A DNA stretch of 64,000 nucleotides from the NCBI GenBank assembly GCA_018398805.1, contig JAGFBZ010000726.1, positions 108,501 through 172,500 of the forward strand, in the 5' to 3' direction. Below the pieces are notes generated by a model. That model saw only the letters and a program-made list of their open reading frames with translations. It was not told where the DNA came from and made no database searches. This DNA is from Hirundichthys speculiger. Its lineage: Eukaryota; Chordata; Actinopteri; Beloniformes; Exocoetidae. Positions 9,001-48,000 of this stretch are shown one piece after another. The stretch's first letter is position 1. Each line of letters opens with the position of its first letter. The translations under genes were made by a program, and so were the position numbers.

Positions 9001-12000
9001 CTATCAGACCTGCTACAGGACCACCATCAGACCTGCTACAGGACCACCACATCAGACCTGCTACAGGACCACCATCAGACCTGCTACAGGACCACCACCA
9101 GACCTGCCTACAGGACCACCATCACCTGCTAACAGGACCACCCAGAACTGCACACAGGACCACCACACAGACCTGCTACAGGACCACCATCAGACCTGCT
9201 ACAGGACCACATCAGACCTGCTACAGGACCACCATGCTACAGGACCACCAGACTCAGGACCTGCTACAGGACCACCGTCAGACCTGCACAGGACCACCTC
9301 AGACCTGCTACAGGACCACCACCTGCTACAGACACCATCAGCTACAGGACCACCACCAGACCTGCTACAGGACCACCATCAAACCTGCTACAGGACCACC
9401 ATCAGACCTGCTACATGGACCACCATCAGACCTGCTACAGGACCACCATCAGACCTGCTACAGGACCACCAGACCTGCTACAGGACCACACATCAGACCT
9501 GCTACAGGACCACCATCAGACCTGCTCAGGACCACCACCAGACCTGCAACAGGACCACCGTCAGACCTGCTACAGGACCACAGTCAGAACCTGCTACAGG
9601 ACCACCATCAGACCTGCTACAGGACCACCACCAGACCTGCTACAGGACCACCATCAGACCTGCTACAGGACCACATCAGACCTGCTCACAGACCACCATC
9701 AGGACCTCAGACTACAGGACCACCACCAGACCTGCTAACAGACCACCGTCAGACCTGCTACAGGACCACCATCAGACCTGCTACAGGACCACCATCAGAC
9801 CTGCTACAGGACCACCGTAAGACCTGCTACAGGACCACCATCAGACCTGGTTTGGTCCCTCAGACCAGATGTGGTCTACAGGTTTCTGGTTTTAGCTCAC
9901 GCGCCCGTCTGAAGCTGACGGCCATTAACGAACGTTCACTCATCAAGTCTGTGGTTCCAGACAGGTGAGGAGACTCACCTGGTTTTTGTCAGTTTCCTTC
10001 AGAGTCCACTAGAGATGCTTCCAGACCTGGAGGTCTGGTAGTCCTCCACCAGTTCAGGGAGTCCTTCATGGACCTCAGTCTCAGCTCCGTCACTGATCTG
10101 TGGTCGTCTGGACGACCGCTCAGCTGTTAATCAGTCAGCTGATTAACCAGCTGGTTCAGGTGAGTCCAGGGTTGGGTTTGGGCCTCTAGGGGTCGGTGCA
10201 GGAACTGCAGCCTCTAGCGGTCGGTGGATGAACTGCAGCCTCTAGCGGTCGGTGGAGGAACCGCAGCCTCTAGCGGTCGGTGGAGGAACCGCAGCCTCTA
10301 GCGGTCGGTGGAGGAACCGGAGCCTTTAGCAGTCGGTGGAGGAACCGCAGCCTCTAGCGGTCGGTGGAGGAACCGGAGCCTTTAGCAGTCGGTGGAGGAA
10401 CCGCAGCCTTTAGCGGTCGGTGGAGGAACCGCAGCCTTTAGCGGTCGGTGGAGGAACCGCAGCCTCTAGCGGTCGGTGGAGGAACCGCAGCCTCTAGCGG
10501 TCGGTGGAGGAACCGGAGCCTTTAGCAGTCGGTGGAGGAACCGGAGCCTTTAGCGGTCGGTGGAGGAACCGGAGCCTTTAGCGGTCGGTGGAGGAACCGC
10601 AGCCTTTAGCGTTCGGTGGAGGAACCGCAGCCTTTAGCGTTCGGTGGAGGAACCGCAGCCTCTAGTGGTCGGTGGAGGAACCGCAGCCTCTAGCGGTCGG
10701 TGGAGGAACCGCAGCCTCTAGCGGTCGGTGGAGGAACCGCAGCCTCTAGCGGTCGGTGGAGGAACCGCAGCCTTTAGCGTTCGGTGGAGGGACCGCAGCC
10801 TCTAGTGGTCGGTGGAGGAACCGCAGCCTCTAGCGGTCGGTGGAGGAACCGCAGCCTCTAGCGGTCGGTGGAGGAACCGCAGCCTCTAGCGGTCGGTGGA
10901 GGAACCGCAGCCTCTAGCGGTCGGTGGAGGAACCGCAGCCTCTAGGGGTCGGTGGAGGAACCGCAGCCTCTCGGGGTCGCTCTGTAAGAGCTTCATGTGA
11001 ACTTCGTATTTTTGGTTCTAAGATGTTGATCAAATTCTGGTTCTGGTCCACTCTGAACCAGAACAGAACTCTCTTTATTTAATGTGTGTAACCTCCCAGA
11101 ATCAAGTTGTGAAGTAGTGGATTAAAGTCACTGGTCTGTTCCAGACCAGTCCAGACTCCCAGGAACCAAACCAGACGGTTCCAGCTGCTGTCTCTCTGGT
11201 CCACAAGCTGAACTGGCAGCTTTATTTTTATTTTCTTTATTTTTTTAATTGGTATTTTAAATAGAATTGTTTTTAACTTGTGACCTAAACCTGGACCTGT
11301 CTGTTCTGGACCTGATGCTTTGCAGTGTGAAGGACATCCAGCATCGTCCTGAAGGTGCAGGAGCCTCGTCTCCAGTTGTCCTCTGTGGACCCCCCCCCCC
11401 CCCCCCCCGACTCTGGGCATCATGGAGGGCAGCTAATTGGATTTGTTGTCACTTCCTGCTGTGGGCGGGGCCACCTGTCTGCTCGGCTCAGCGATGAAGA
11501 CGTCAGCGTGACAGGAACCGGTGGGGGGGACCAGCTGCAGTCCTGGACGCCGTCTTCCGGCCGTGACGCGGTGACCGCGGACAGCTGTTACCTCTGACAC
11601 CTCTCCTCCGGCGACGGGGGGGCGGGGCTTTACCGGAGCAGATGCCCCCCCCCCTCCCCTCCCCCTCCCCCCTCTGCTCTGTGGGAGCGGTCAGACGGAC
11701 TGTCCTCTGTGGCGCCGGAGCTTCTGGACAACAGAACCTGGTGTTGGTCTGGACGTCTGAAGACACAGCTGAGAGGAGGAGACCTGCTGGTGTCCATGAG
11801 ATCTGTGAGACCAAACCTGCTGATGTCCCCGTCTGGTTCCTGAAGACACAGCACACCTGCCCCTCTGAGTCCTTACTGGTTCCTGAAGACAGACAGCACC
11901 TGGACCCCTCTGATGTCCCCGTTGGTTCTGACCCTCTGATGTCCCCGTCTGGTTCTGAAGACACAGCAGCAGACCTGGACGTCCCTCTGATGTCCTTATC

Positions 12001-24000: not shown

Positions 24001-27000
24001 ATTAACCGAGTTACAGCAGCACTCATGTTTCAGCTGAAACATCACGACTCTTCAAAGCTGCACATCCTTCAGTCTGACATCAGCCAGAGGACACATTTAA
24101 GACAAAAATCAGTCTCCAGCGCGTAAACATCACAGAGACAAACAAACAAAGACGCTGCGGAGTGAAATAAAACCTCTCTGGAAGCGTTCTGCGGATCGCC
24201 TTCAGAGCTGATTTTAAACTACGCTTTCCCTTCCTCTGAGATTTTAATTAATGCTTTAATATGCAAATAAGCAAGTGGAGATAAAATCACGACAAACAGA
24301 TGGCAAGTGTGGGTAATTATTTTGTGAATCCAGCAGAGGCGTGTATTAAAGTTATAGCATCGTTTTCCTGCAGCCGAGGAGGGAGGGGGAGGGGCCGTTA
24401 GAGCATGACATCATCGACAGACGACAGACGTGACCGTCTGCAAGCGTCCAGACGAGAGACTGTTTGAGACAAACCTCCCTGAGACGTCTCCTGGAGCTTC
24501 CTGAAGGACACTTTTAGGGCCTGGAGAAGACGCTAATGAGCTCAGTTATCAGGGGCTAGCTGTTTTAGCTTAGCTTATGCTAACCTGTAATGCGAGTGTC
24601 ACTGCTGAAACAACATCTGAAACGACTGCTGGCAGAGCTGAAACCAGGACCAACAGACTGCTGTTCCTCTACCGACCACTAGAGGCTGCGGTTCCTCTAC
24701 CGACCACTAGAGGCTGCGGTTCCTTTATTGACCGCTAGAGGCTGCGGTTCCTCTATTGACCGCTAGAGGCTGCAGTTCCTCTATTTACCACTAGAGGCTG
24801 CGGTTCCTCTATTGACCGCTAGAGGCTGCAGTTCCTCTACCGACCACTAGAGGCTGCGGTTCCTCTACCGACCACTAGAGGCTGCGGTTCCTTTATTGAC
24901 CGCTAGAGGCTGCGGTTCCTCTATTGACCGCTAGAGGCTGCAGTTCCTCTATTTACCACTAGAGGCTGCAGTTCCTCTATTGACCACTAGAGGCTGCGGT
25001 TCCTCTATTGACCGCTAGAGGCTGCGGTTCCTCTATTGACCGCTAGAGGCTGCGGTTCCTCTATTGACCGCTAGAGGCTGCGGTTCCTCTATACCACCGC
25101 TAAGCTGCGTTTCTTCTACCGACCGCTAGAGGCTGCTGTTCTTCTACCGACCGCTAGAGGCTGCGGTTCCTCTATTGACCGCTAGAGGCTGCGGTTCCTC
25201 TACCGACCGCTAGAGGCTGCGGTTCCTCTACCGACCGCTAGAGGCTGCTGTTCTTCTACCGACCGCTAGAGGCTGCTGTTCTTCTACCGACCGCTAGAGG
25301 CTGCGGTTCCTCTATTGACCGCTAGAGGCTGCGGTTCCTCTACCGACCGCTAGAGGCTGCGGTTCCTCTACCGACCGCTAGAGGCTGCGGTTCCTCTACC
25401 GACCGCTAGAGGCTGCGGTTCCTCTATTGACCGCTAGAGGCTGCGGTTCCTCTATTTACCGCTAGAGGCTGCGGTTCCTCTATTGACCGCTAGAGGCTGC
25501 GGTTCCTCTATTGACCGCTAGAGGCTGCGGTTCCTCTACCGACCGCTAGAGGCTGCTGTTCTTCTACTGACCGCTAGAGGCTGCTGTTCTTCTACCGACC
25601 GCTAGAGGCTGCGGTTCCTCTGTTGACCGCTAGAGGCTGCGGTTCCTCTACCGACCGCTAGAGGCTGCTGTTCTTCTACCGACCGCTAGAGGCTGCGGTT
25701 CCTCTACCGACCGCTAGAGGCTGCGGTGGCCTCTTACCGACCGCTAGAGGCTGCGGTTCCTCTATTGACCGCTAGAGGCTGCGGTTCCTCTATTGACCGC
25801 TAGAGGATCCGGTTCCTCTATTGAACACTAGAGGATGCGGTTCCTCTACTGACCGCTAGAGGCTGCGGTTCCTCTATTGACCGCTAGAGGCTGCGGTTCC
25901 TCTATTGACCGCTAGAGGATCCGGTTCCTCTATTGAACACTAGAGGATCCGGTTCCTCTATTGAACACTAGAGGATGCGGTTCCTCTACTGACCGCTAGA
26001 GGCTGCGGTTCCTCTATTGACCGCTAGAGGATCCGGTTCCTCTATTGAACACTAGAGGATCCGGTTCCTCTATTGAACACTAGAGGATGCGGTTCCTCTA
26101 CTGACCGCTAGAGGCTGCGGTTCCTCTATTGACCGCTAGAGGATGCGGTTCCTCTACCGACCACTAGAGACCTGCAGTCCCTTTGACGGGCGACTCTGGT
26201 AGGTTTTTTTGGACCTGCTGGTCGTGGTTTCAACCTTCACTGCCGTCGGTTCAGATACTTGAAATGAGGATGTTTGGACAGATTTGATCAGAAAAGTGAT
26301 ATTAATTGGCATCAGCAAAGCCAGTGAAGCTAAAAAGCTAACTGTGATTGACAGGAGGTGGGCGTGTTCCAGTCAGTTTCCAGACCTGCTCATTTTACAA
26401 CACGGTGCCATGCGGGACGAGGAAGAAGAGGCTTCAGATCCAGTCTTCAGAAACCCGTGGATCATCCGTTAACGATATTTGAATCAGACACAGCTAATGA
26501 GACGGTAGCAACAGAAGTCATTTACGAGTCATAAACATCATTTAGCGCCACCTACCTGCTCCTCCTGAGTCACAGCGTCCACCTCCAGGGAAACCAGCGA
26601 CCGGTTGATCCTCAGGGCCAGACTCAGAGCCATCAGGCCTCCGAGCCTCACCGGGTTCTGACGGAGGTCCAGTCTCCGAACGCGACGACTCTCAGCGAGG
26701 AACTCGGCCAGCGCCACGGCACCTGGACCAGAGAACACAGGTGGTTTCAGGAGGTCACGTGACCCTGCGGGGTCGGTTTCAGCTGATCCGTGAAGAAGGA
26801 ACCATCTGATGGTGGCGGGTCTCAGTGGAGCGGGCGCAGGTTCGATTCCCGGCCTGTGAGGCTTCGGTTCACGTGTCCCCTGGTCTCGGTTCTGGTTCCT
26901 GTCTCTGACTGACTGATTAAAGGCCACGAGAGCCAGAAAGATCCGGAACAGAGAGAAGTTCCCGGGCCTCCTTCATGGGAACTAAATCACCTGCTGACGC

Positions 27001-30000
27001 AGAATTAATGACTAATTAAAGCTCATTAATGAGACGTTTCAGTCCTGATTTTACCACATAAAACTAATTTAACATCAAAGAGTTCCAGTTGTGCAAAAGT
27101 CATTATTTGTAACAAAAGGTTGTAATATTAACTTAAAAAGTCACAACTCTGTGAAAGTTGTTTTTTACCAAAAAAAAAAATCTACAATTTAATTCTTACA
27201 ATTTTACAAGAAGTTGAGTTTTTGTCAAAATGTCAAAATTAAAATTCATAATTTGATGTCAAAAAACTGCGATTTTGTGAATTTTCTAATATTCCAACAA
27301 AAATGAGTGATTTTAGAAAACTGTTGATATTTTACTATAAAAAATTATAATTTTTACTTGAAAAGTCAGAATTTTTCAAGTTTACAACAAAAATATTCAA
27401 AGTTGAGATTTGGTTAAATTTGTAAAAAAAAAAAAGTTATGATTTGATGTAAAAAAAAAAAAAAAAAAAAAGTAAATTTGACAAAAATTAGCTTTTTACA
27501 ACAAAGTTGTGATGTTGTGAAATTTTTTATAGTTTTGTGATTTTTAGGCCAACGTCAAAATCTAACACCAAAAAGTTTAATAAGTTAAAAAGGTGAGATT
27601 GTAAAAGTTGCAGTTATATTGTAAATAATGTTTCCAGGCTCAAGCTGTCCAGATGTCCTGCAGAGCTTCAGAGGAGGTTCTGTTGGTACCAGCAGAAACA
27701 TCTGAGCTACTAACCAAACCATCACACCTCCACCACCGTGCCTGACAGTAGGACTGAGATGGTTCTGGGCCTTCAGAACCATGGAGAACATCTCAGTGGT
27801 TCTGGTTCAGGCTCCTTCACAGGTGATGTTTCTCACGTACCTTCACAGGTGATGATGCTCACGTACCTTCACAGGTGATGTTGCTCACGTACCTTCACAG
27901 GTGATGTTGCTCACGTACCTTCACAGGTGATGTTGCTCATGTACCTTCACAGGTGATGTTGGTCACGTACCTTCACAGGTGATGTTGCTCACGTACCTTC
28001 ACAGGTGATGTTGGTCGTGTACCTTCACAGGTGATGTTGCTCACGTACCTTTACAGGTGATGTTGGTCACGTACCTTCACAGGTGATGTTGCTCATGTAC
28101 CTTCACAGGTGATGTTGCTCGTGTACCTTCACAGGTGATGTTGCTCATGTACCTTCACAGGTGATGTTGGTCGTGTACCTTCACAGGTGATGTTGCTCAC
28201 GTACCTTCACAGGTGATGTTGGTCGTGTACCTTCACAGGTGATGTTGGTGGTGTACCTTCACAGGTGATGTTGCTCACGTACCTTCACAGGTGATGTTGC
28301 TCATGTACCTTCACAGGTGATGTTGGTCACGTACCTTCACAGGTGATGTTGCTCACGTACCTTCACAGGTGATGTTGGTCACGTACCTTCACAGGTGATG
28401 TTGTCACGTACCTTCACAGGTGATGTTGGTCACGTACCTTCACAGGTGATGTTGGTCACGTACCTTCACAGGTGATGTTGCTCACGTACCTTCACAGGTG
28501 ATGTTGCTCACGTACCTTCACAGGTGATGTTGCTCGTGTACCTTCACAGGTGATGTTGCTCATGTAACTTCACAGTTGACGTTGGTCACGTACCTTTACA
28601 GGTGATGTTGCTCACGTACCTTCACAGGTGATGTTGCTCGTGTACCTTCACAGGTGATGTTGCTCACGTACCTTCACAGGTGATGCTGGTCTGGACCAGG
28701 CCGAGCTGCAGCAGCGAGCTGTTCACCATCAGCGGCTCCCGGATCACCTGGACACCCTGGTTCCTCAGGAGGTTCTCCCCCAGGTCCAGGACCTGCAGGA
28801 CCTTCAGCGCCGGCTGCAGGACAGGATTCAGGAGAGAAGGGTTGTGGCTCAGAGAGTAGCGGGAAGTTTTAATTAGCACCGCTGAGCAGTCGTCGTTACT
28901 CCGTCTCTCAGAACTTCTGTCGTCTCTCTCCAGAGCCACATTAGCGTTGAAGGTTGATTAGCTGGCGCATGAAGCCGGGGGCGTCTGGGACACGAGGGGC
29001 CGCCGTGGAGCCCGGCGGCCCGAGGAGGAGCCGCCCCACTCCTGGATACCCCCGCCTCGCCTCGCCACCCCCCCGTTAGACTCCTCTGGTCACCGCTCCG
29101 CAGAGGGACGGGGGCGGAAACCAGGCGGATGACAGACCCGGGAGTCCCAGTTAACCCGTTCAGAACCAGAGCGGTTTCTGAGGCTCTAATTAGCTCCTGA
29201 CTCGTTTAAAGTGACTGCATCCCAACAGCTACGAGGCGCATTTACGACATTTATTATAAAAATAACGGTAGCACACGTGAGATTACGTGTAGGTCCCTCC
29301 CCATCTGCGCCCTTCTGCTAATTATGTTTAAGCTAATTATGTTTAAGCGTTATCGTTTCTCCTTTTGTTTGGAGCTGCTGAGATGAAACTGAGGTGAAAC
29401 TGAGGTGAAACTGGTGAAACGACGGCAGCCATTAAAGAGGCGAACAGCGTAGCTGAAAGCCGTCAGACGTGAGGAGGTGTGGTCTCCATCTGAACCAGAA
29501 GCTCTGAAGGACAAAACATCAGCGCCAGGAAAGAGGAAGAGCAGAAGAAACTCCACGTTTGAGTCGGTGGTGACGACATAAACCAGAATAACTGAGATGT
29601 TTAGGATTAAAGGTGGAGATTTAACGAGAGGCAGAAATGGCACATTTCAGAACTAGTTGTGATCTTTTTTTTTCTTTTTTTTTTTTTTTTTTTTTTTTTA
29701 GGATATTTCAATCTTACAAAATTCAGTTTTTGTAGTAAAACTGAATCATCATAAAATTAAAAAAATGTATCATTTTGGGATTTAAATAAAAAATTACAAT
29801 GTATTTGCAGATCACAATTTTCAAATAATTTGAGATTTTATGCAAAAAAATTATAATTTTTACAACAAGAATTTAAAATTCCACAAAAGTTGTAATTTTA
29901 CATGAAAAGTTGCACATTTTGGTGAAAAAGTTGGTTAAAAAATAAAAACAAAGAGTCACAACTTCGCAAAACTTTGACAAAACTTTCGCAAAACAATTTT

Positions 30001-33000
30001 ACAAGAAAAATTTGTGAGTTGAGGAGAAATAGTTACAATTATACAAAGTGGGAAATTTTACAACAAATAATTGTAATTTAAGTCAAACAATTGCAATTTT
30101 ACAAAAGTTGATATTTTACAACAGAGGAATTTGTAACGTTAGGGTTAAAAAGTTTAAATTCTTCAATTTTATTGCAATTTTATAACAAAATGTTGTTTTT
30201 GTAAGAACAAAGTTAACTGAGATACTTTTTCACATGATATAGACTGTAAAGAAAAGAATGAAAAGAAAAAGTGGACTAATTATAAAAAGTTAAGAGGAAA
30301 TGACAATTTCATGTATAAGATATTAATTTCATCCATGTTTGTCTAAATGTGTGTTTTTCTTTTAGAACCTGGTCTAAAGTCCTTTATTCACTTCCTCTGC
30401 TCACCACTAGGGGCTGGCTGCTCAACAGTGAGTCAACTGTACTGGAGGTCAATGCAGATCTGCTCTGTTCTGAACCCCTGGTGGACAGTAGAGGAACTGC
30501 AACAGTTACGGTTACAGTGTAGGTGGATCTACAAGCTCCTGAATCACAGAGAAATAAATTATAATGTTGTTTAAAACGACCCACTACACCCAGAAAGGTC
30601 AGGGATTAGCATCAACGGGCTGCTAACCTTCACTGCTCTGGGTTCATCTACTGAACTCGGGTTTGGGTTCTGACCCAGAAGTGGTTCCTCACCAGAACTT
30701 TGGCCAGGTGCTCCATGCCTCTCTCGGTGATCTGGTTGTTGTTTAGCAGCAGGACCTTCAGACCTTCAGTCTGCCTCCACAAGCCGTCGCAGAGCTCCTC
30801 TAAACCTGGACGGCCACAAACAAAGACAGTTCAGAGGTTCTGCGGATCAGAACATGTAAAGGACACGAGATCCGGTCTGAGCTGGACGTCCATGATCTCT
30901 GATCCCTCAGACGACGTCAATGACTGTCGTGTCAACCTTTGACACCACAGCGCAGAGAGACAGTCACTAATGTTCACCTGTCCAACCTCAATGTCTCCGG
31001 ACTGGGAAGACCACAAGGCTCTGGATGAGGACCTCTGCTGAAGGAGGGAGGAAGGAGGGAATAAGACAAGAAAGGAAGGAAAGGAAATAAAGAAACTAAG
31101 GAAGGGAGGACTGACCAAAGCGCCAAACAAACGAGCAAAGAAGGACAAGCAAGAAAAAAATGACGGAAGGAACCAATGAAGGTTGGGAGAAGGAAGGAAG
31201 GAAGGGAGGGAAAGAAGTGAGGAAAACAACTTTTCTGATCATAAAGAGTGCTGATGTTAACCTCCAGAGGAGACGTCTGGACCATCAGCATGGAAGCATG
31301 GATTAGTCCCACAAGGCTCTGCATGAGGACCTCTGCTTCTTCAGCTCCACACTCCTCCACTCAGCTCCATCTGGTTCATTAATACAAACCTATATGCAGA
31401 CGACACTCTGGTTTATGTTTCTGATCAATATTACGGATCTCTTTAGGAACAAAAGGTCACTTGGTGCCCCAGAGCAACGATGAGAAGGATCGTCCAGGCG
31501 GTTATCATCAGCAGTCCAGAATCCAGGCTCTGTGATGGTCTGGGGTTTTATCTGTGTCCTCAGCAGAGGACCTTCAAGACCACAACGGTCGCAGGGACGT
31601 CCATGGAGAACCACATTCTGGACACATTACTGAGGAAGAAGAGGGTTCAGGTACCAGACTGGATCAAAAATGGAAGAGGAGAAATGAAGCAAAGAAGCAA
31701 GGAGAGAGGAAGGAAGGAAGGAAGGAAGGAAGGAAGGAAGGAAGGAAGGAAGGAAGGGTAGCTGGAGAAATGGGACTAAAGACCTGAAGCTCCTCCAGTT
31801 AGATCCATCAGAGCCAGAACATCTTTAAATGCTGTGTGAATGAATGGAGACATGACAGTGGTGAAACATCTCTGTCCTCTCTGTCGAAGAATGTGTCACA
31901 GGTCTGAAATATAAAATTAAAAAGATGAGCTCATCAATAAATAACAAGGTTCCAACATGTTTTCAGCTCCTTACCAGCATCAGCTATCAGGTTGTTGCTG
32001 ATCTCCAGCATCTGCAGCGTAGAGTTGTATCGCAGCAGCTCCCCCAGCTGAAGAGCATCCTGGAAGCTGTTCAGCTGGTTGTTGGTCAGATGAAGCTCTC
32101 GCAGAGATCTGTTGGTCTTCAGCGCTCCGACTGCAGCCAACGAGACCAGAAACCAAGGTCAACGAGACCAGAAACCAACGTCAACGACACCAGAGACCGA
32201 CGTCAACGACACCAGAGACCGACGTCAACGACACCAGAGACCGACGTCAACGACACCAGAGACCGACGTCAACGACGGCAGAGACCGACATCAACGACAC
32301 CAGAGACCAACGTCAACAACACCAGAGACCGACGTCAACGACGGCAGAGACCGACGTCAACGACACCAGAGACCGACGTCAACGACACCAGAGACCGACG
32401 TCAACGACACCAGAGACCGACGTCAACGACACCAGAGACACCGAGTCAACGACACCAGACGACGTCAACGACACCAGAGACCGACGTCAACGACACCAGA
32501 GACCAACGTCCACGACACCAGAGACTGACGTCAATGACAGCAGAGACCAACGTCAACGACACCAGAGACCAACAACACCAGAGACCAACGTCAACAACAC
32601 TAGAGACCGACGTCAACGACACCAGAGACCGACGTCAACGACACTAGAGACTGACGTCAACGACACCAGAGACCGACGTCAACGACACCAGAGACCGACG
32701 TCAACGACACCAGAGACCGACGTCAACGACACCAGAGACCGACGTCAACGACACCAGAAACCAAGGTCAACGACAACGAGACCAGAGACCAAAGACACCA
32801 GAGACCGACGTCAACGACACCAGAAACCAAGGTCAACGACACCAGATACCAACGACACCAGAGACCAACGTCAACGACACCAGAGACCGACGTCAACGAC
32901 ACCAGAGACCGACGTCAACGACACCAGAGACCAACGTCAACGACACCACAGACCGACGTCAACGACACCAGAGACCGACGTCAACGACATCAGAGACCAA

Positions 33001-36000
33001 CGTCAACGACACCAGAGACAGACGTCGACGACACCAGAGACAGACGTCAACGACACTAGAGACTGACGTCAACGACACCAGAGACAGACGTCGACGACAC
33101 CAGAGACAGACGTCGACGACACCAGAGACTGACGTCAACTACACCAGAGACCAACGTCAACGACATCAGAGACCGACATCAACGACACCAGAGACCGACC
33201 TCAACGACACCAGAGACCGACGTCAACGACACCAGAGACCAACGTCAGCGACACCAGAGACCGACGTCAATGACATCAGAGACCAACGTCAATGACACCA
33301 GAGACCGACGTCAACGACACCAGAGACCGACGTCAACGACACCAGAGACCGACGTCAACGACACCAGAGACCAACGTCAACGACACCAGAGATGGACGTC
33401 AACGACACCAGAGACCGACGTCAACGACACCAGAGACCGACGTCAACGACACCAGAGACCGACGTCAACGACACCAGAGACCGACGTCAACGACACCAGA
33501 GACGGACGTCAACGACACCAGAGACCGACGTCAACGACACCAGAGACGTCAGACACCAGAGACGACGTCAACGACACCAGAGACCACGTCAACGACACCA
33601 GAGACGACGTCAACGACCAGAGACGGACGTCAACGACACCAGAGACGACGTCAACGACACCAGAGACCGACGTCAACGACACCAGAGACCGACGTCAACG
33701 ACGTCAGAGAACGAGACGACGTCAACGACACCAGAGACACGTCAACGACACCAGAGACAGAGACCGACGTCAACGACACCAGAGAGACCGACGTCAACGA
33801 CACCAGAGACGAACGACTCAACGACACCAGAGACACCAGACCGTCAACGACACCAGAGACCGACGTCAACGACACCAGAGACCGACGTCAACGACACACC
33901 GAGAGACACGACCGAACGTCAACGACACCAGAGACCGACGTCAATGACACCAGAGACCGACGTCAACGACACCAGAGACCGACGTCAACGACACCAGAGA
34001 CCGACGTCAACGACACCAGAGACCGACGTCAACGACACCAGAGACCGACGTCAACGACACCAGAGACCGACGTCAACGACACCAGAGACCGACGTCAACG
34101 ACACCAGAGACCGACGTCAACGACACCAGAGACCGACGTCAACGACACCAGAGACCGACGTCAACGACACCAGAGACTGACGTCAACGACACCAGAGACC
34201 AACGTCAACGAGACCAGAGACAGACGTCAACGACACCAGAGACCAACGTCAACGACACCAGAGACCAACGTCAACGACACCAGAGACCGACGTCAACGAC
34301 ACCAGAGACCGACGTCAACGACACCAGAGACCGACGTCAACGACACCAGAGACCGACGTCAACGACACCAGAGACCGACGTCAACGACACCAGAGACCGA
34401 CGTCAACGACACGTCAGACACCAGACCGACGTCAACGACACCAGAGACCGACGTCAACGACACCAGAGAACCGACGTCAACGACACCAGAGACCGAGACG
34501 TCAACGACACCAGAGACCGACGTCAACGACACCAGAGACCGACGACGTCAACGACACCAGAGACCGACGTCAACGACACCAGAGACCGACGTCAACACAC
34601 AGAGACAGACGTCAACGAGACCGACGTCAATGACACCAGAGACCGACGTCAACGACACCAGAGACCGACGTCAATGACACCAGAGACCGACGTCAATGAC
34701 ACCAGAGACCGACGTCAACGACACCAGAGACCGACGTCAACGACACCAGAGACCGACGTCAACGACACCGAGACCGACGTCAACGACACCAGAGACCGAC
34801 GTCAACGACACCAGAGACCGACGTCAACGACACCAGAGACCGACGAACGACCAGAGACCGACGTCAACGACACCAGAGACCGACGTCAACGACACCAGAG
34901 ACCGACGTCAACGACACCAGAGACCGACGTCAACGACACCAGAGACCGACGTCAACGACACCAGAGACCGACGTCGTCAACGACACCAGAGACGACGTCA
35001 ACGACCAGAGACCGACGTCAACGACACCAGAGACCGACGTCAACGACACCAGAGACCGACGTCAACGACACCAGAGACCGACGTCAACGACACCAGAGAC
35101 CGACGTCAACGACACCAGAGACCGACGTCAACGACACCAGAGACCGACGTCAACGACATCAGAGACTGACGTCAACGACACCAGAGACCGACGTCAACGA
35201 CACCAGAGACCGACGTCAACGACATCAGAGACCGACGTCAACGACACCAGAGACCGACGTCAACGACACCAGAGACCGACGTCAACGACACCAGAGACTG
35301 ACGTCAACGACACCAGAGACCGACGTCAACGTTTCTTATGGTTCTCAGCCTGGAAATGGAAATCTTTCTGCTCATTATCAACAGGAACGCGTCTCCTCTA
35401 TTTCGTTGGTGAGTTGGTCCTGAACACCAAACATCGAACCTCATCGGTGGAACCGGGAGGACGTGAGCATGAAAACGTGTCCAGCAGCCGTTGGCACTTC
35501 CTGCCATGATTCCCGTCCAGAAGCGGTCTCTGGTTTCAGGAAAACCCCGTCAGGTTCTGCAGCATCAGTCTGGGAGACGGTCGGCTTTTTCTTTTCCGTT
35601 CTTTGTGTCTTTGTCTGAAGTGTTTGAGCCGCCTGGACGCTCGCCGCCCTCCCGCCCAGATCGATGCTGCAGATGTGATGGCGCCCGTCGGGCCGCGTGC
35701 AGAACGCCAACGTTGTCATCAGGCCCAGCGGGAAGCAAATGGTGGAATCGGTGGGATTGATCCGGCCGACTCCAGCGCCAGCGCCCCAGTCCTGCAATCA
35801 GGCCCCCCCCCCCGATCAAAGGCAATGATCCTCAGCTGGGAGCCCCGCTGGGTGGGGGGTGGGGGGTGAGGGGGGGGGGTGAGCTGGAGCCAGAGATGAT
35901 GGGGGAGGGGGGGCCTTAAATATCAAAGAGATCCAGGAAGTGGCTGAAAACCGTGGAGGTTGGGAGGACCGGGTCGGTTCTGCTCCCACTGATGACATCA

Positions 36001-39000
36001 TCAGCTCAGTTCTCAGGAAGGAAACCGTTTAACTGACGGTCCAGTGATTTATAAAAACTCTGAAGGTTCACCAGGTTTACTGGTCTCCAGTTTAGACGTT
36101 CACGGGTTTGAAACCAGCGCTTTGATCTTCTGGGAGTGTGTTAGTGTGGAGCTAAAGTTGATTATTAAAAGATGATTTCAGTTGAATTATGATTTTGATT
36201 CAATTCTCAGATTCTCATGAATAAATTAGTTTCTTCCACTTTAACACACACCTCTGTTTTTTTTTTTCGTTTTTTTTTCAGATCGTTTATTTGTAACGAC
36301 GGTTAACAAACGATGGTTTCAAACCTCGATTATCGGTTTATTCTGCCTTTGGCTGAATGGAACTTTGTGAAAGTGAAGAAAGAAGTAAAGAAACCGTTTG
36401 TTCGTACATCTCTTCCACCTGCACGACCTGAAGACGTGACTGACAGTTCTGGGCGTCGTCAGTCGTGAGGCCCCACCCCTCACGCTGGACACACCTTTAA
36501 CTCTGAAAAAACACGAGCGCTCAAAGTTTCTAGAAGAATGTTTCAGTGAAAAGTGAAAGTGAATCATTTTGTTCAATTGAATCAAAATCATAATTAAATT
36601 GCTTCAACAATTAAAATTCCAATTTTTTGTGAAAAACTACAACTTTTTTCACATCAAATTGCAACTTTTTCTATTGAAAAATCAACATATTTTGAGGGAA
36701 AATTGTAGCTTTTTTCATTTTTGTACCTTTTTTCAAATATTTTTTTATATTGTAATTTTTTTAGCAGCGTAAACTCACACGGGGGTGGGCGGAGTCAGAA
36801 CTCCCAGCGTTTGTAATTCATATCCACTTATCAGAAGCCTGTGATGACGTCACAGAAGCTTTGTCCAGTTCTCTTTATAGTCACAAGCTTCTAACGGCTC
36901 TGAAGAAAATGTTTGTTCCCGTTAAAACCATTTTCTCCTCAAACGTGTGCCTGTGTGTGTGTGGATGTGTGTGTGCATGGATGTGTGTGTGTGCGTGGAT
37001 GTGTGTGTGTGCGTGGATGTGTGTGTGCGTGTGTGGATGTGTGTGTGTGTGTGGATGTGTGTGTGCGTGGATGTGTGTGTGCGTGTGTGGATGTGTGTGT
37101 GTGTGTGTGGATGTGTGTGTGTGTGTGGATGTGTGTGTGTGTGTGTGCGTGTGTGTGTGTTCTGAGGCCAGCAGGACCAGATTTTGACCCGTGACCGTCT
37201 CTGCAGGTCTGGACCCGGATTACAGCTCTAATCTCTCTCCTGTCACGCTACGCTCTGCTGAACACGTCTGTAAAGACCAACGCCGCCAGGTGAACAGGTG
37301 AACATACACGGACACACACACCTGCTCCTGTCACATGTTCACACACAGGTCAGATCGAATCAAACTGAATGAAACAGAACAGTTCAGTCCGTCCTCTCTG
37401 ACCGTTATCCATCATCATCGCTGCCTCAGTCACATTTTGGGCTTTAAGGAGACGTTACTAATTAAAGATCAATAAGTTCTTGACAAAATAAAAAAAAAAA
37501 CACAACCCTCAATTGAACATCAGGAATCAAATACTGAACAATAAGATCAGTTCCAGTAGCTGTGAGGCTGCAGATCTGGAACCAGTCAGAACGATGACCT
37601 TAACAATTATGGAAGAAGAAGACAAACCTCTGTGATGTCATCAAAGGTTTCTGGAGAATCTGGGACAGTTGACAAGGATTTAAAATCAATCTAAGAACAA
37701 AATGGTTTTGTACGAGACTGTCGGTCAGTAGAGGAACTGCAGCCTCTAGTGGTCGGTAGAGGAACTGCAGCCTCTAGTGGTTCAGTAGAGGAACTGCAGC
37801 CTCTAGTGGTCAGTAGAGGAACTGCAGCCTCTAGTGGTCGGTAGAGGAACTGCAGCCTCTAGTGGTAGGTAGAGGAACTGCAGCCTCTAGTGGTCAGTAG
37901 AGGAACTGCAGCCTCTAGTGGTCGGTAGAGGAACTGCAGCCTCTAGTGGTAGGTAGAGGAACTGCAGCCTCTAGTGGTCGGTAGAGGAACTGCAGCCTCT
38001 AGTGGTCGGTAGAGGAACTGCAGCCTCTAGTGGTTCAGTAGAGGAACTGCAGCCTCTAGTGGTCAGTAGAGGAACTGCAGCCTCTAGTGGTTCAGTAGAG
38101 GAACTGCAGCCCTCTAGAGGGAACTGCAGCCTCTAGTGGTTCAGTAGAGGAACTGCAGCCTCTAGTGGTCGGTAGAGGAACTGCAGCCTCTAGTGGTCAG
38201 TAGAGGAACTGCAGCCTCTAGTGGTCGGTAGAGGAACTGCAGCCTCTAGTGGTCGGTAGAGGAACTGCAGCCTCTAGTGGTCGGTAGAGGAACTGCAGCC
38301 TCTAGTGGTAGGTAGAGGAACTGCCGCCTCTAGTGGTTCAGTAGAGGAACTGCAGCCTCTAGTTGTCGGTAGAGGAACTGCAGCCTCTAGTGGTAGGTAG
38401 AAGAACTGCAGCCTCTAGCGGTCAGTAGAGGAACCGCAGCCTCTAGCGGTCAGTAAAGGAATCGCAGCCTCTAGCGGTCAGTAGAGGAACCGCAGCCTCT
38501 AGCGGTCAGTAGAGGAACCGCAGCCTCTAGTGGTCAGTAGAGGAACCGCAGCCTCTAGTGGTTCAGTAGAGAACCTGCAGCCTCTAGTGGTCGGTAGAGG
38601 AACTGCAGCCTCTAGTGGTCAATAGGGGAACTGCAGCCTCTAGTGGTCAATAAGAGAACTGCAGCCTCTAGTGGTCAATAGGGGAACTGCAGCCTCTAAT
38701 GGTCAATAGGGGAACTGCAGCCTCTAGTGGTCAATAAGGGAACTGCAGCCTCTAGTGGTCAGTAGAGGAACTGCAGCCTCTAGTGGTCAATAAGAGAACT
38801 GCAGCCTCTAGTGGTCAGTAGAGGAACTGCAGCCTCTAGTGGTCAATAAGGGAACTGCAGCTTCTAGTGGTCGGTAGAGGAACTGCAGCCTCTAGTGGTC
38901 AGTAGAGGAACTGCAGCCTCTAGTGGTCAATAGGGGAACTGCAGCCTCTAATGGTCAATAAGGGAACTGCAGCCTCTAGTGGTCGGTAGAGGAACTGCAG

Positions 39001-42000
39001 CCTCTAGTGGTCAGTAGAGGAACTAAAGCCTCTAGTGGTCAATAGAGGAACTGCAGCCTCTAGTGGTCAATAAGGGAACTGCAGCCTCTAGTGGTCGGTA
39101 GAGGAACTGCAGCCTCTAGTGGTCAGTAGAGGAACTGCAGCCTCTAGTGGTCAGTAGAGGAAATGCAGCCTCTAGTGGTCAATTAGGGAACTGCTGCCTC
39201 TAGTGGTCAATAAGGGAACTGCAGCCTCTAGTGGTCAATAAGGGAACTGCCGCCTCTAGTGGTCGGTATAGGAACTGCAGCCTCTAGTGGTCGGTATAGG
39301 AACTGCAGCCTCTAGTGGTCAATAAGGGAAATGCAGCCTCTAGTGGTCAATAAGGGAACTGCCGCCTCTAGTGGTCGGTATAGGAACTGCAGCCTCTAGT
39401 GGTCGGTATAGTAACTGCAGCCTCTAGTGGTCAGTAGAGGAACTGCAGCCTCTAGTGGTCAGTAGAGGAACTGCAGCCTCTAGTGGTCAATATGGGAACT
39501 GCAGCCTCTAGTGGTCAATAAAGGAACTGAAGCCTCTAGTGGTCAGTAGAGGAACTGCAGTCTCTAATGGTCAATAAGGGAACTGCAGCCTCTAGTGGTC
39601 GGTAGAGGAACTGCAGCCTCTAGTGGTCAGTAATGGAACTGCAGCCTCCAGTGGTCTGTAGAGGAACCGCAGTCTCTAGTGGTCAGTAGAGGAACCGCAG
39701 CCTCTAGTGGTCGGTAGAGGAACTGCAGCCTCTAGTGTTCGATAGAGGAACTGCAGCCTCTAGTGGTCATTAGAGGAACTGCAGCCTCTAGCGGTCGGTA
39801 GAGGAACTGAAGCCTCTAGTGGTCATTAGAGGAACTGCAGCCTCTAGCGGTCGGTAGAGGAACCGCAGCCTCTAGTGGTCGGTAGAAGAACTGCAGCCTC
39901 TAGTGGTCTGTAGAGGAACTGCAGACTCTAGTGGTCTGTAGAGGAACTGCAGACTCTAGTGGTCGGTAGAGGAACTGAGAGTGTGTCCTACCCAGTGTGA
40001 ACAGCGGCCTCCCACTCAGCTGAGTGTTTTCCAGGTCCAGTACTGTGATCCGGCTGGCTGTCAGAGCTCTGGACAGAAACTGGACTGGACAGTCAACCAT
40101 GGACACATTAGACAGGTCCAGCCTGGACAGACGTGTGCTCTGAAACACAGTGGAGAGAGACAGGTCAACTAAAACTGGTTCATTAGGATGTCTGAATCAG
40201 ATGGAGTCCTCAGAGGTGGAGCTTGATTTTAGAGGAGCTGAGAAGAGATGATGGGACTGATGTACAAACAAAGAGGTTTCAATTTGCTGCTGCAGTTCCT
40301 CTATTGACCACTTGAGGCTGCAGTTCCTCTATCTACCACTAGAGGCTGCAGTTCCTCTACCGACCGCTAGAGGCTGCGGTTCCTCTACCGACCACTAGAG
40401 GCTGCAGTTCCCCTTTTGACCACTAGAGGCTGCAGTTCCTGTACCGACCACTAGAGGCTTCAGTTCCCTTATTGACCACTAGAGGCTGCAGTTCCCCTAT
40501 TCACCACTAGAGGCTGCAGTTCCCCTTTTGATCACTAGAGGCTGCAGTTCCTCTACCGACCACTAGAGGCTGCAGTTTCTCTACCAACCACTAGAGGCTG
40601 CATTCCTCTACTGACCACTAGAGGCTGCGGTTCCTCTACCGACCACTAGAGGCTGCAGTTCCTCTACCGACCACTAGAGGCTGCAGTTTCTCTACCGACC
40701 ACTAGAGGCTGCAGTTCCCTTATTGACCACTAGAGGCTGCAGTTCCTCTACTGACCACTAGAGGCCGCAGTTCCTCTACTGACCACTAGAGGCTGCAGTT
40801 CCTCTACCGACCATTAGTGACTGCAGTTCCTCTACCGACCGCTAGAGGCTGCAGTTCCTCTACCGACCACTAGAGGCTGCAGTTCCTCTACCGACCACTA
40901 GAGGCTGCAGTTCCTCTACCGACCACTAGAGGCTGCAGTTCCTCTACCGACACTAGAGGCTGCAGTTTCTCTGCTGACCACTAGAGGCTGCAGTTCTTCT
41001 ACCGACCACTAGAGGCTGCAGTTCCCCTTTTGACCACTAGAGGCTGCAGTTCCTCTACTGACCACTAGAGGCTGCATTCCTCTACCGACCACTAGAGGCT
41101 GCAGTTCCTCTACTGACCACTAGAGGCTGCAGTTCCTCTACTGACCACTAGAGGCTGCAGTTAGTCTACCGACCACTAGAGGCTGCAGTTCCTCTACCGA
41201 CCACTAGAGGCTGCAGTTCCTCTACGACCTAGAGGCTGACCCACCACTAGAGGCTGCAGTTCCTACTGACCCACTAGAGGCTGCAGTTCCTCTACCGACC
41301 ACTAGAGGCTGCAGTTCCTCTACCACTAGAGGCTGCAGTTCCTCTACTGACCACTAGAGGCTGCAGTTAGTCTACTGACCACTAGAGGCTGCAGTTCCTC
41401 TACTCTGGTGTGGACGCTGGTTCTGGTTTGTTGGGCCTCACAGTTCAACCTCATGTTAGCTTTTCTTGAATTTCTTCCATAAACTCAGTTTCCAGATGAA
41501 CGTTGTCGTGAACAGAACGCTACATGAACAGATTAGCGCTCCAACCTTTTTCATCAGATGAGCGAGGGCCCTCCAGGCGGCGGCGGTTCTCATCCCGCTG
41601 ATGTCAGACAGGTCCAGATACGCTGTAGATTCGTAGTACAAAATCATTTCCAGCAAGGACGACGCTCCCTGCAACCGAAGTAATACAGAAGGAGAAAAAT
41701 GAAAAAAAAGCAAGCTTTTTAAATTTGACAGGAATGTTATGAAGTTTCTACAGAAGGAAGAAGGAAAAAAAAAATCCTCTAATCTGATCCGAGGAGGGAC
41801 CTGAATATGAAACTGTACTGGAGCTGGGAGACGGAGACGGAGATGAAATAAGTTTCTGCTCATAAAACTCACATTTTCCTCCAGTTGGGCGGCCCGCAGA
41901 TTGATGAAATCAAAGCGCAGGGATTTGAGGACGGCTTCCAGAGCTTCGCAGGAGCGCTGGTCTAATCGCTCACCTTGATGGAAGCAGCAATCAAACAGGA

Positions 42001-45000
42001 GATAATTGGGAGGCGGTTTGCTAACGGGCTTTTTCCTGAAACGAGCATTTCAGAAAAACTATCAGGACAAAACAACTTCCATTCCCAGACGAAGTTTATT
42101 TGCTTTTTCCTTTTAATAAAGTTCTGAGACTCGATCAGAAACACAGACGGAGGAATAATGACGATCGCTCCAGTTATTCATGATTGGACTTCCAAGACGT
42201 GAATCCCATTGATTACAGTCTGCCTGCAGGCGGGAGCGATCAATAATCCCACATTAACAGCAGCGACGCTAACAGCAGCGACGCTAACAGCAGCGACGCT
42301 AACAGCAACGCTAGCAGAAGGCGCCGGACGCTTTTACCTGCACAAACGTCCTCATTTATCCACGAAGGCGGAGAAAACAAACCCAGACAGACGCTGCAGG
42401 TCTGGAGCATTCAGCTCTGTGCTAACACCATGCCAACAGGGAAAGACATCAGCAGTGGATTCAGAGGAGCAGCTCAGGACAGGAAGACCTGGTTCTGGTC
42501 TACGGTACTCTACTGGACCGCACCTTTAAAGACCCTTTAAAGGTCGCAGGTTCGACTCCCGGCCTGGGTTCCTGTCTCTCTCCAGTTCCCAAAGACCAGT
42601 GGAGCCACAGAAACCTTCAGACTAAATGTCCTCCCTGTAATCTGTCTCCTTTTATGTCCGTCTGTTCGGTGAAATCTTGTTCAGGAAATCCATCTGAGAA
42701 GCATAAAACCGACCTGGAGTCGCTCGTTCGTCATTTCGATGCGTCGCGCGGCGGTGAGGTCACTGGAGACGTCCACCTGGAACCAGAAGAGGCGGGACAC
42801 GATGTCCTCTGAATCACTGAGACGTTCACTCACACTGGACCAACCTCACAGACGTCCTGTCAGGTCCCAGATAACAGCCGTCCACCAGTAGGACCACCAT
42901 GGGAATGTCCACCACCATCGTCCTCAGGACGGAGACGGTTCAGAGATGAACAACAGCTGGACAGCTGCTGAAGCTGGTCAGGGAAACCAGTCCTGGACCG
43001 ACATGGACCGAAGGACCAGGAAGAAGACATTACTCCAGAAGAGACAGGACAGAGACAGATTACAGGGACAAAGAGCTTAATTTCTGGAGACATGTCCTGG
43101 TCTGATGGACCTAAAACATCTGGAGGAGAAAGATCTGAGACCAGCATCCAGCTGTGGAGCATGGCTCAGTTCCTGGTTCGGTTTCCTGGTGGGAGTCGAC
43201 CCGGCACCGGGGGGGGGGGGGGGGGGGGGGGTGTTTATCCGGTTCTTCGGTTCTTCTTCTTGTCTTCGCCTGCATCCGTTGCCATGGTGACATGCCCCCC
43301 CCTGAGACTGGAACCAGTAGAAACCTGAAGATGCTTCCTGATAACCAGAAGCTGCCCCGCAGGAACGTCGTTAGCGTTTCGGATCGTCGCTCTCCTCGGC
43401 TCCTCTTGGCTCTGAAGTCCAAATCAAAGCGTGACCGTTGGAATCCATGTGACTTCCCCCGACGCCGCTGATCTCCGCTGGTTAACGCTTATCTCGCAGC
43501 CAAGACGCAGGAACGATAATTACTATCATCATTATTTCCAAAGTGATTTTTTGCCCTTCTGTGTTAACAGTAATCAGTTAAGTGAGCGATGGCAGGAGGA
43601 AGAGCCATCTGAAATCCCATTTCCTCTAATCCGCCCTGCATGTGGAAGATAATGGCAGCGACAACCCGGAGTCAGATGTCATCGGCGCGTGATGGCGGCG
43701 GCGGCGCCCATCACGCCATCAAACAGCTTCACGCTGATTCTGCACCAGCGAGGAGTCAGAACTCAGATAAGTTTAGTTGACGATCTCCACCAGCTTCATC
43801 TGAGTCTGTACGCTCAGTTTCCAGTGAGTTTAACTGGGTACCAGCAGCACATCTGGACCTCCGCTGGGACGGGTCCTGACGGTCCTGATGGTCCTGATGG
43901 TCCTGATGGTCCTGGAGGTCCCTCAGGTTGGACCCCAGGAGGCCTCAGTCACGTTGAAGGTCTCAGCAGAGCTAGCCGGCCCATCAAAGCTGACGACGTG
44001 GTGCCCTGGTCCAGTTTAGCAGCAGTTTGTCTCCGTCCTCGTGTCCTACAGGGACGCCTCGTCTGAGACGCCTGCTTTGCACCATGGTCTACTGGATCTG
44101 CTGCGTGGACCCTGACAGGGTTTAGGGTGGTCCAGCACCAGGGGTCAATGCGTATCTCCAGCAGAGCAGGTCAAAGGTCGCTTCTGGGACGCTTCAAAAC
44201 CTCTCCATGGGGGTTCTGATGGAACCAAAACCATCAAATGACCACAATTAGAAACCGAAGTTTAACAGCCGTTCCACATTCTGCAGAACTTCAGCTTCAG
44301 TCAAAGGGACCAGCAGCTCCAGTAGTTCCAGTAGTTCCAGTAGTTCCAGTAGTTCCAGTAGCTCCAGCAGCGATTCTCTGCTGCATCTTTATTTACATCC
44401 TCGGGAGCAAAACTGACATCTAGATTCCTGAACCCTGAAAACCCCAATTACCCCTAAACTAGTGGTTTTATCAAATTTTGATGAGGGTCATCAAAATGTT
44501 TCAATGTGGGGTCAAATGAGATTGACTCACTTCTGGATCCCTAACCCCCTAACCACTAATCCCTAACCCTCTAACCACTAACCCCCTTACCACTAACCGC
44601 TAACCCAGTAACCACTAACCTCTAATCACTAACTGGTAACCACTAACCACTTACCACTAACTTTTAACCCAGTAACCACTAACCCCATAATCACTAACCC
44701 TAAGCACTAACTGCTAACCACTAACCTCTAACCCAGTAACCACTAACACCTAACTACTAATCCATTAACCATAAACCGCCTAACCACTAACCCCCTAACT
44801 TCTAACCAATAACATCTAAACACCACTAACCCCCTAACCAATAACCCTTTAACCAGTAACCACTAACTACTAACCTCTTGCCACTAACCCCCTAACCAAT
44901 AACCGTTTAACCACTAACCACTAAGGACTAACTACTAACCTCTAACCAATAACCCTTTAACCAGTTACCTCTAACGACTAACTCCCTAACCAATAACCCT

Positions 45001-48000
45001 TTAACCAGTCACCACTAACCACTAACTTCTAACAACTAACCCCCAACCTCCTAACCACAAACCACCTAACCACTAACCCCCTAACTTCTAACCACTAACC
45101 TCTAACCACTTACCACTAACCCTCTAAATAATAACCCTTTAACCAGTAACCAGTAATCACTAATCACTAACTACAAACCTCTAACCACTAACCCCCTAAC
45201 CAATAACCTTTTAACCAGTAACCACTAACCTCTAACCAATAACCCTTTAACCACTAAACCAGTAACCACTAAGCCCCTAACCAATAACCCATTAACCACT
45301 AACCCCCTAACTACTAGACAGTGTTGTTTCATCTCCATTTTTGAACGTTCTTCTTCTTCTCTCTCTCCAGATGTTTTTTGTGTCATGACCCCACATACAC
45401 CGTCCACCAGGGGGCAGTGGTGAGTCACCTCCAGCTCCTCCCAGGTGTTCTGAGAGCTGAACTGGTTCCAGGGTCGTCTCATCGTATAAACGTGGACCGG
45501 TTGCATCGGTGGTTGTGTCACTTTGAAATGATTCATTTTCTCGTGTTTAGTCGGCGTTCCTCACAGCGTCCAGCTGTGTTGCTCCAACGTGGATGTACAG
45601 GTGTTTGATGGGACGTCATTTAATCAAATATCCAAATATCTACGTTGTGTTTGACAGGTGAGTGCGTGCAGGTGTGGCTGTCAGGCTGAAACGAAACTAG
45701 AGTCAGATCTGTGGGTTTCTGGGTGGAGTATGAAGCAGAGAGCTGGACGTCACCTGGACGTCACCTGGACGTCACCTGGACGTCACCTGGAGTCTTCAGT
45801 CGTATCTGTGATGATGGATGGAGGCGCTCAGCTCACCTTTGAGATCCAGACGTTCCACGCTGCCAGGTAGACCCTCCCCCCGCTGTGGAGGAGAGAGGAG
45901 GAGGCGTGAACACACACACATCCACGCCACGCTGTCACGCTCTGATCAGGGAGGCTGAATTATGAATTTCACACAGTTTACGGCGCCGTGGATGGTGACA
46001 CGGCGTCCTAATTAACCAGTGTATAATAATTAGAAACAGCTGGTCATCAGTTGATGTGTTCATTTGGCGAAGCCGCCGTTCCACATACATGTGATCTGAC
46101 TGCATCCATCACCGGAGGAGGCAGGTGGGAGCTCGTTACTGTTCCCTCTCTCTTTAAAAAAAAAAACAGCTTCATCTATTCCTGAATAAACAGGACTGAC
46201 TTTCATCTGTCCATCACACGGATGGATGGATAGATAAACGGATGGATGGATAACCAGACGGATAGATAGCCAGATAGATAACCGGATGGATAGATAACTG
46301 ATGGATAGATAACCAGATAGATAACGGATGGATAGATAACTGATGGATAGATAACCAGATAGATAACTGGATGGATAGATAATGATGATGATAGATTGAC
46401 CAGATAGATAGAATGATAGATAATGATGGAGATAACTGATGATAGATAACTGATGATAGATAACTGGATGGATAGATAACTGATGTATAGATAACCAGAT
46501 AGATAACCGGATGGATAGATAACTGATGGATAGATAACTAGATAGATAACTGACGGATAGATAACTGATGGATAGATGACCAGATAACTGGATGGATAGA
46601 TAACTGATGTATAGATAACCAGATAGATAACTGGATGGATAGATAATATGATAAGATAACCAGATATAGATGATGATGGATAGATAACCAGATAGATAAC
46701 CGATGGATGGATAGATAACTGATGGATAGATAACCAGATAGATATATACTGATATAGATAACCATGATAGATAACCGATAGATAACCGGATGATGGATAG
46801 ATAACCAGATATGATGGATAGATAACCAGATAGATAACTGATGGATAAATAACTGATGGATAGATAACCAGATGGATAGATAACCAGATAGATAACCGGA
46901 TGGATAGATAACTGATGGATAGATAACCAGATAGATAACTGATGGATAGATAACTGATGGATAGATAACTGATGGATAGATAACCAGATGGATAGATAAC
47001 AGATAGATAACCGGATGGATAGATAACTGATGGATAGATAACTGATGGATAGATGACCAGATTCATTAATCATTTATTAATCATCATTGATTAATCAGTC
47101 GTCTCAAACAGATTTCATGATTTTAATTGACAAACCAAACTATCTAAATCTGTTCAGAGAACGTATTTACCTCCTGTGATGGAGGTCCACGACTCTACGA
47201 GGATCCTGAACCTCCTGAAGTCCTCTGGTATCTGTGGTATCAGTGAGGCTCCACAGGGGCGCCAGAGGTTGAGACTGTTTTCAGTTCAGTTGTTTTCCAG
47301 TCAGAGAGACGCATCCAGGCTCCAGATCAGAGGCACCGGTGGAGGGCCAGGGGTCGATGGAGGGCCAGGGGTCCGATGGAGGGCCAGGGGTCCGGGTGGA
47401 GGTCCAGGGGTCCGGTGCAGGTCCAGGGGCCTGGTGGAGGTCCAGGGGTCCGGAGGAGGTCCAGGGGTCCAGTGGAGGTCCAGGGTCCAGGGTCCGGTGG
47501 AGGTCCAGGGGCCAGGAGGAGGTTCAGAGGCACCGGTGGAGGGCCAGGGGTCCGGTGGAGGTCCAGGGGCTGGGTGGAGGTCCAGGGGGGTCCGGTGGAG
47601 GTCCAGGGGTCCCGGTGCAGGTCCAGGGGTCCGGTGCAGGTCCAGGGGTCCAGTGGAGGTCCAGGGGTCCAGGTGGGGTCCAGGGGGTCCAGGGTCGGTG
47701 AGGTCCAGGGTCCAGGGGAGGTCCAGGGGTCCGGTGGTGGAGGTCCAGGGGCCCGGAGGAGGTCCAGGGGTCCGGTGGAGGGCCAAGGGTCCGGTGGAGG
47801 TCCAGGGGCCCGGTGGAGGGCCAAGGGTCCGGTGGAGGGCCAGGGGCATGGTGGAGGTCCAGGGGTCTGGTGCAGGTCCAGGGGCCTGGTGGAGGTCCAG
47901 GGGTCCGGAGGAGGTCCAGGGGTCCAGTGGAGGGCCAGGGGCACCGGTGGAGGTCCAGGGGCCCGGAGGAGGTTCAGAGGCACCGGTGGAGGGCCAGGGG

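Follow-up and report, generated by a model that had tools for sequence, protein, structure and literature searches.

Known splice-donor repeats and the ppp1r37 locus

In the splice-donor minisatellite of the human gene IFI6 (also 6-16 or G1P3), the repeat unit is 12 bp long, additional units add in-frame residues (proteins of 130, 134 or 138 aa) and the predominant form is made from the first donor. According to a later article, two downstream repeat units of this element serve as donors, giving rise to three mRNAs, and the 130-aa form predominates (Turri, Cuin and Porter 1995, as cited in PMC4526556). The splice-donor minisatellite is therefore already known as a kind. Here, we describe a 26-bp minisatellite that adjoins the end of exon 8 of ppp1r37 in Hirundichthys speculiger (Exocoetidae), within a 64,000-nt stretch of genomic DNA (assembly GCA_018398805.1, contig JAGFBZ010000726.1, positions 108,501 to 172,500 of the forward strand; hereafter the window, whose own coordinates are used throughout). 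The minus strand of the window carries this teleost gene, and its exons are numbered e1 to e10 as found there.

As in IFI6, the ppp1r37 array starts at the exon end and consists of units with donor-like sites, a GT being kept at 32 of 33 unit starts and GTACGT at 21 of 33; donor use in ppp1r37 is predicted from these sequences. Unlike the 12-bp IFI6 unit, the 26-bp unit does not keep the reading frame and carries an in-frame TGA, so that an extra unit would not be tolerable in the protein. Also unlike IFI6, the segment that founded the array can be named. Intron gain through tandem duplication at AGGT presents a related arrangement of tandem AG/GT-bearing copies, each a possible donor and formally also an acceptor (PMC4974935); in ppp1r37, however, the copies lie within an existing intron, the original junction stays in place and no new intron has arisen. 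DOK7 intron 4 likewise has neighbouring donors of which one shifts the frame, though these are two sites 11 nt apart rather than a repeat array, and the canonical DOK7 protein comes from the intron-proximal donor, whereas that of ppp1r37 can come only from the intron-distal (exon-side) one (PMC5585400). No description of a fish splice-donor minisatellite was found among the titles and opening lines of abstracts listed by searches of an open-licence library.

Structure and origin of the array

Exon 8 (28813–28672, minus strand, 142 nt) starts in phase 0 and ends in phase 1 (...ITCE G), flanked by an AG and a GT. Read directly on the minus strand, it ends ...ATCACCTGTGAAG at 28672, and intron 8 starts GTACGTGAGC at 28671. 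Homology, phase and the neighbouring exons identify it as an internal coding exon: in tblastn, residues 315–362 of the ppp1r37 protein of Xenentodon cancila (P0001) end on exon 8 (83% identity) and residues 362–417 start on exon 9, without a gap. Exon 9 (26556–26722, minus strand, 167 nt) starts GT GCC GTG, which completes the Gly of CEG, and has the donor CAG/GTAGGT (the slash marks the exon/intron boundary). A different exon end, which could have left the array wholly intronic and unrelated to the exon, is unsupported, as homology and phase fix the end at 28672.

The first base of intron 8 is also the first base of the minisatellite (27815–28671, minus strand; consensus GTACGTGAGCAACATCACCTGTGAAG). 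It comprises 33 units, 32 of 26 bp and one of 25, with no spacer between them and a gap of 0 bp to the exon, such that the earlier note's tandem repetition of the exon/intron junction about 33 times is borne out by direct reading. The array has the features by which minisatellites are recognized, namely head-to-tail order, a unit of about 10–100 bp and many near-identical copies (mean identity to the consensus 95.4% for the 32 full-length units). Tandem Repeats Finder (TRF) calls it at 27814–28685 (period 26, 33.6 copies, 93% matches), reaching 14 bp into the exon. Variation is mostly at unit positions 5, 6 and 9. There are 13 unit types, several of them interspersed, among them the 25-bp unit and variants that occur only near the two ends. 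Among blocks of three to six units only AFHA (with its parts AFH and FHA) recurs, so that recent expansion by blocks is not clearly indicated. Copies of the 26-mer with up to five errors were found nowhere else in the window, on either strand.

The founder segment (28666–28691, minus strand) consists of the last 20 bases of exon 8 and the first six of intron 8. Suitably rotated, the full-length copies (n = 32) match it at 25 of 26 positions in five cases, 24 in 16, 23 in two, 22 in eight and 21 in one, and the similarity between exon and array stops beyond 20 bases into the exon. Tandem arrays across the window were defined by a period of at least 6, at least five copies and a score of at least 200, with calls within 30 bp merged. 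By this definition, the last 20 bases of exon 8 match their array at 19/20 positions, as against at most 15/20 for the other 19 exon-edge 20-mers and any merged array (10 exons with two edges each, including the arbitrary 3' edge of e10), and 60 random exon 20-mers compared with the other arrays gave a mean of 13.8 and a maximum of 17.

Conservation of the exon end gives the direction of growth. Homologues were collected with the joined exons e3–e9 as a 316-aa query (7990 candidates scored, 266 at E ≤ 0.001, 120 of these listed). Among the 120 listed, ITCEG is exact in 102, conservatively changed in 12, gapped in five and otherwise altered in one. Given that 114 of the 120 thus keep [ILMV][TS]CEG at the exon end, the exon half predates the array, and it was the junction that gave rise to the array. 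This supports, at the level of sequence, the proposal of the earlier note that the minisatellite nucleated on a splice junction, being built from an exon end together with its own 5' splice site.

The copies apparently preserve a codon older than the one now in the exon. Translated in the exon frame, 30 of the 32 full-length units read Asn followed by ITCE or ITCK (the others being one NVNCE and one with Ile), and 27 read TNITCE or SNITCE, as against TSITCE in the exon. Among the listed homologues the commonest residue at this site is Asn (53), followed by Ser and Gly (23 each), and Asn occurs in both beloniform proteins examined, P0001 and P0071. The simplest account would be that the array retains the older Asn codon and that the exon changed to Ser afterwards.

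Donor strength and the consequences of read-through

The authentic 5' splice site (28663–28671, minus strand) has GTACGTGAG as intron bases 1–9, with an in-frame TGA at intron bases 6–8 (28666–28664). The normal junction introduces no stop, while retention of 1 to 33 units in silico ends in 33/33 cases at this same TGA codon in the first unit, in agreement with the claim that only the first donor keeps the frame and that reading past it meets TGA within eight intron bases. From this stop to the next junction is 18 to 849 nt in silico, with the junctions after units 4 and 33 lacking GT, and as e9 is 167 nt long, the distance from the stop to the e9/e10 junction is 185 nt or more. The usual rule for nonsense-mediated decay (NMD) is a distance of 50–55 nt. 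Read-through mRNAs would therefore be expected substrates of NMD, given the position of the e9/e10 junction.

The description of the array as a row of near-identical AAG/GTACGTGAG donors holds for only part of it. The 33 unit starts comprise 21 with GTACGT (13 GTACGTGAG and eight GTACGTGAC), seven with GTACAC, four with GTACAT and one with TTACAT; since the authentic donor accounts for one of these 21, 32 decoy unit starts lie downstream, of which 20 carry the full GTACGT, 11 lack the G at +5 and one is without GT, as is the junction that follows the final unit (AAG/GAGCCT). Counted outward from the exon, downstream junctions one to six are weak, strong, strong, dead, weak and strong. The change at unit position 5 is from CG to CA, as would be expected for CpG decay.

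Donors were scored with an approximate matrix, and U1 duplex energies were calculated with the end of U1. On this approximate scale, the authentic donor scores 9.1, a value not exceeded by 99.7% of the window's 5065 gene-strand GT sites, and the gene's seven other scored donors range from 4.2 to 10.0 (e2 and e10 excluded). Full copies score the same as the authentic donor (9.1) and weakened copies 4.0–5.3.

Proposed splicing outcome and alternative explanations

Taken together, these features probably reflect a junction-derived minisatellite in which the exon-side donor remains functional and some transcripts leak to decoy donors and are lost to NMD. The 26-bp segment spanning the exon 8/intron 8 junction was duplicated in tandem, and its copies expanded into the intron, while the coding side of the junction stayed where it was. 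The transcript thus presents the authentic donor followed by 32 unit starts, 31 with GT and 20 with the authentic hexamer. Functional mRNA would be produced from the exon-side donor via exon definition from the acceptor and enhancers of exon 8 itself, and some transcripts would leak to the strong copies closest to the exon; as the first downstream copy lacks the G at +5, such leakage is expected to lengthen the mRNA by 52 and 78 nt, not by 26. Translation of leaked mRNAs would end at the TGA eight bases into the intron, and NMD should then remove them. The anatomy of the array, its founder segment, its direction of growth and, in silico, the stop codon are seen in the sequence; donor choice, leakage and decay are inferred. 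We favour the exon-side donor because the gene seems to be intact and because, in human IFI6, repeats act as donors while one main protein form predominates.

Several observations weigh against this interpretation. The authentic donor is unexceptional, with a U1 duplex energy of -7.2 compared with -5.4 to -12.9 for the seven other donors; full copies equal it at -7.2, and even the weakened ones reach -5.6. Folding does not support any special accessibility of this donor, whose mean unpaired value of 0.35 is within the range of 0.18–0.67 for all 34 junctions. Of two equal, strong donors the intron-proximal one often wins, which would predict harmful use of downstream copies. Published rules for donor choice conflict, SRSF1 favouring intron-proximal and hnRNP A1 intron-distal donors (PMC5585400). 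As for the origin, the Asn/Ser difference could stem instead from a mutation in the founder of the array. Separately, the RNA of the exon end and first ten units (28700–28412) is not unusually structured, with 195 of 200 shuffles folding equally well or better (z 1.74).

The closest rival shares the junction origin and differs on leakage: the array might be a splicing-neutral passenger, its downstream copies hardly used and expression unaffected. Arrays are common here, 26 merged arrays occupying 31,923 of the 64,000 bp of the window (about 50%), and the gene seems intact over e1–e9; however, 20 of the 32 downstream unit starts share the 9-mer of the authentic donor, so that neutrality requires a strong positional bias, and we rate this explanation at somewhat below an even chance. 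Alternatively, the decoys could exert copy-number-dependent dosage control through unproductive splicing, sending a fraction of transcripts to NMD that would be greater in longer alleles. The single early stop shared in silico by all 33 downstream outcomes and the e9/e10 junction beyond it fit such control, whereas 12 of the 32 decoys have weakened or vanished as donors and there is no sign that decoys are maintained, making it rather unlikely. Less likely still is a role as a U1 platform, in which the many U1 sites beyond the exon would either reinforce exon definition or, the gene being over 62 kb long, hold back premature polyadenylation. The authentic hexamer recurs in 20 downstream copies and two ATTAAA hexamers (27581 and 27193) lie past the array in the same intron, though chance alone would be expected to produce ATTAAA in AT-rich DNA, and AATAAA is absent from the intron.

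Two further alternatives concern the array itself. Its copy number could be an assembly or sequencing artefact, since assemblies often mis-size tandem arrays; the interspersed unit types, the 25-bp unit and the end-specific variants argue against this, and we regard it as improbable. The reverse direction of origin, in which a pre-existing minisatellite was captured as an exon end, would fit the TRF assignment of 14 bp of exon to the array, but the similarity ends 20 bases into the exon, and an array-first origin was rejected on the conservation of the exon-end residues in the listed homologues; we consider it extremely improbable.

To our knowledge, choice among identical neighbouring donors has mostly been studied with two or few sites in engineered constructs. 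The ppp1r37 locus presents a naturally occurring series of donors whose predicted strengths are graded, together with a constant stop codon that would report each wrong choice; judging from the in silico read-throughs, any such choice should disrupt the protein. It also allows a minisatellite to be followed back to its founder, a defined segment across a splice junction. Array length is likely to vary between individuals.

The ppp1r37 gene in the window

The gene is identified as a ppp1r37 orthologue because it encodes a leucine-rich repeat protein nearest to annotated ppp1r37, with Pfam LRR_4, LRR_6 and LRR_1 above cut-off. Its best match among the matches listed is P0001 of the beloniform X. 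cancila, with 82% identity over the full 316-aa query, and the homologues listed are teleost ppp1r37 proteins. When a human protein served as the first tblastn query, eight exon matches were obtained in collinear order; tblastn with P0001 and with P0002 then added e2 and supported e10. Joined, e1–e9 encode 365 aa without a stop and with consistent phases, while the 64,000-nt window yielded no exon for the N-terminal part of the protein. A PDB search with exon 8 gave 48 sequences at E ≤ 10, general leucine-rich-repeat matches only among those listed, and a piece of e3 gave no match.

All exons lie on the minus strand. The first found in the window is e1 (62374–62474), followed by e2 (45837–45882, 46 nt), e3 (41873–41973), e4 (41546–41668), e5 (39992–40139), e6 (31975–32130) and e7 (30693–30805), which precedes exon 8; the last is e10 (150–244), whose 3' end is arbitrary.

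Other tandem arrays

The introns between e1 and e10 total 61,133 bp, of which 30,481 bp is array. Arrays are present in six of the nine introns, giving 12 gaps between array and intron end, of which three are at most 14 bp (0, 7 and 14 bp); random placement gave at least three such gaps in 15 of 20,000 trials, for a 14-bp cut chosen after seeing the data. The gap of 7 bp belongs to a 22-bp minisatellite of about 145 copies that ends before e6 (32138–35331, minus strand) and is unrelated to the 26-bp array. On the gene strand it contains 13 AG in 3194 bp, compared with about 75 per kb over all introns (array included). It is very A-poor (169 of 3194 bases) and base composition alone predicts about 59 AG, so that composition explains most, not all, of the deficit. 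The last AG ahead of the acceptor AG of e6 is 396 nt upstream.

The 22-bp array holds 131 branch-point-like TTGAC motifs, and in the 200 nt examined before e6, YTNAY branch-point-like sites recur at -29, -51, -73 and every 22 bases to -183. Pyrimidines make up 64% of the 22 bases before the terminal trinucleotide of the e6 acceptor, the joint lowest of nine with e9 and e10. As judged from these predicted signals, the array takes in the branch point of this acceptor and the greater part of its pyrimidine region. In a broader and distinctly tentative reading, splice sites would seed minisatellites in this genome, repeats would supply signals at both 5' and 3' sites, and allele length would tune output via decoy donors and NMD.

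The gap of 14 bp is that between the end of e5 and a 28-bp minisatellite called by TRF (37723–39977, minus strand). By eye, this belongs to a family of the form CTGCAGTTCCTCTA..GACC..CTAGAGG, with variants and in both orientations, that is also seen at 10182–10979, 24658–26169, 40289–41404, 57757–58643, 59667–59946 and 61217–62135, a distribution that looks as though the repeat itself were mobile. A reverse transcriptase remnant (Pfam RVT_2, E 5.8e-12) lies on the minus strand at 6192–6656, and the intron between e2 and e3 includes a degenerate telomere-like CCCTAAC array (44537–45316). About 90 bp upstream of e1 is a 13-bp array of CAGGTGTTTATAA (62565–63992), whose unit on the gene strand, TTATAAACACCTG, forms a TATA-like run.
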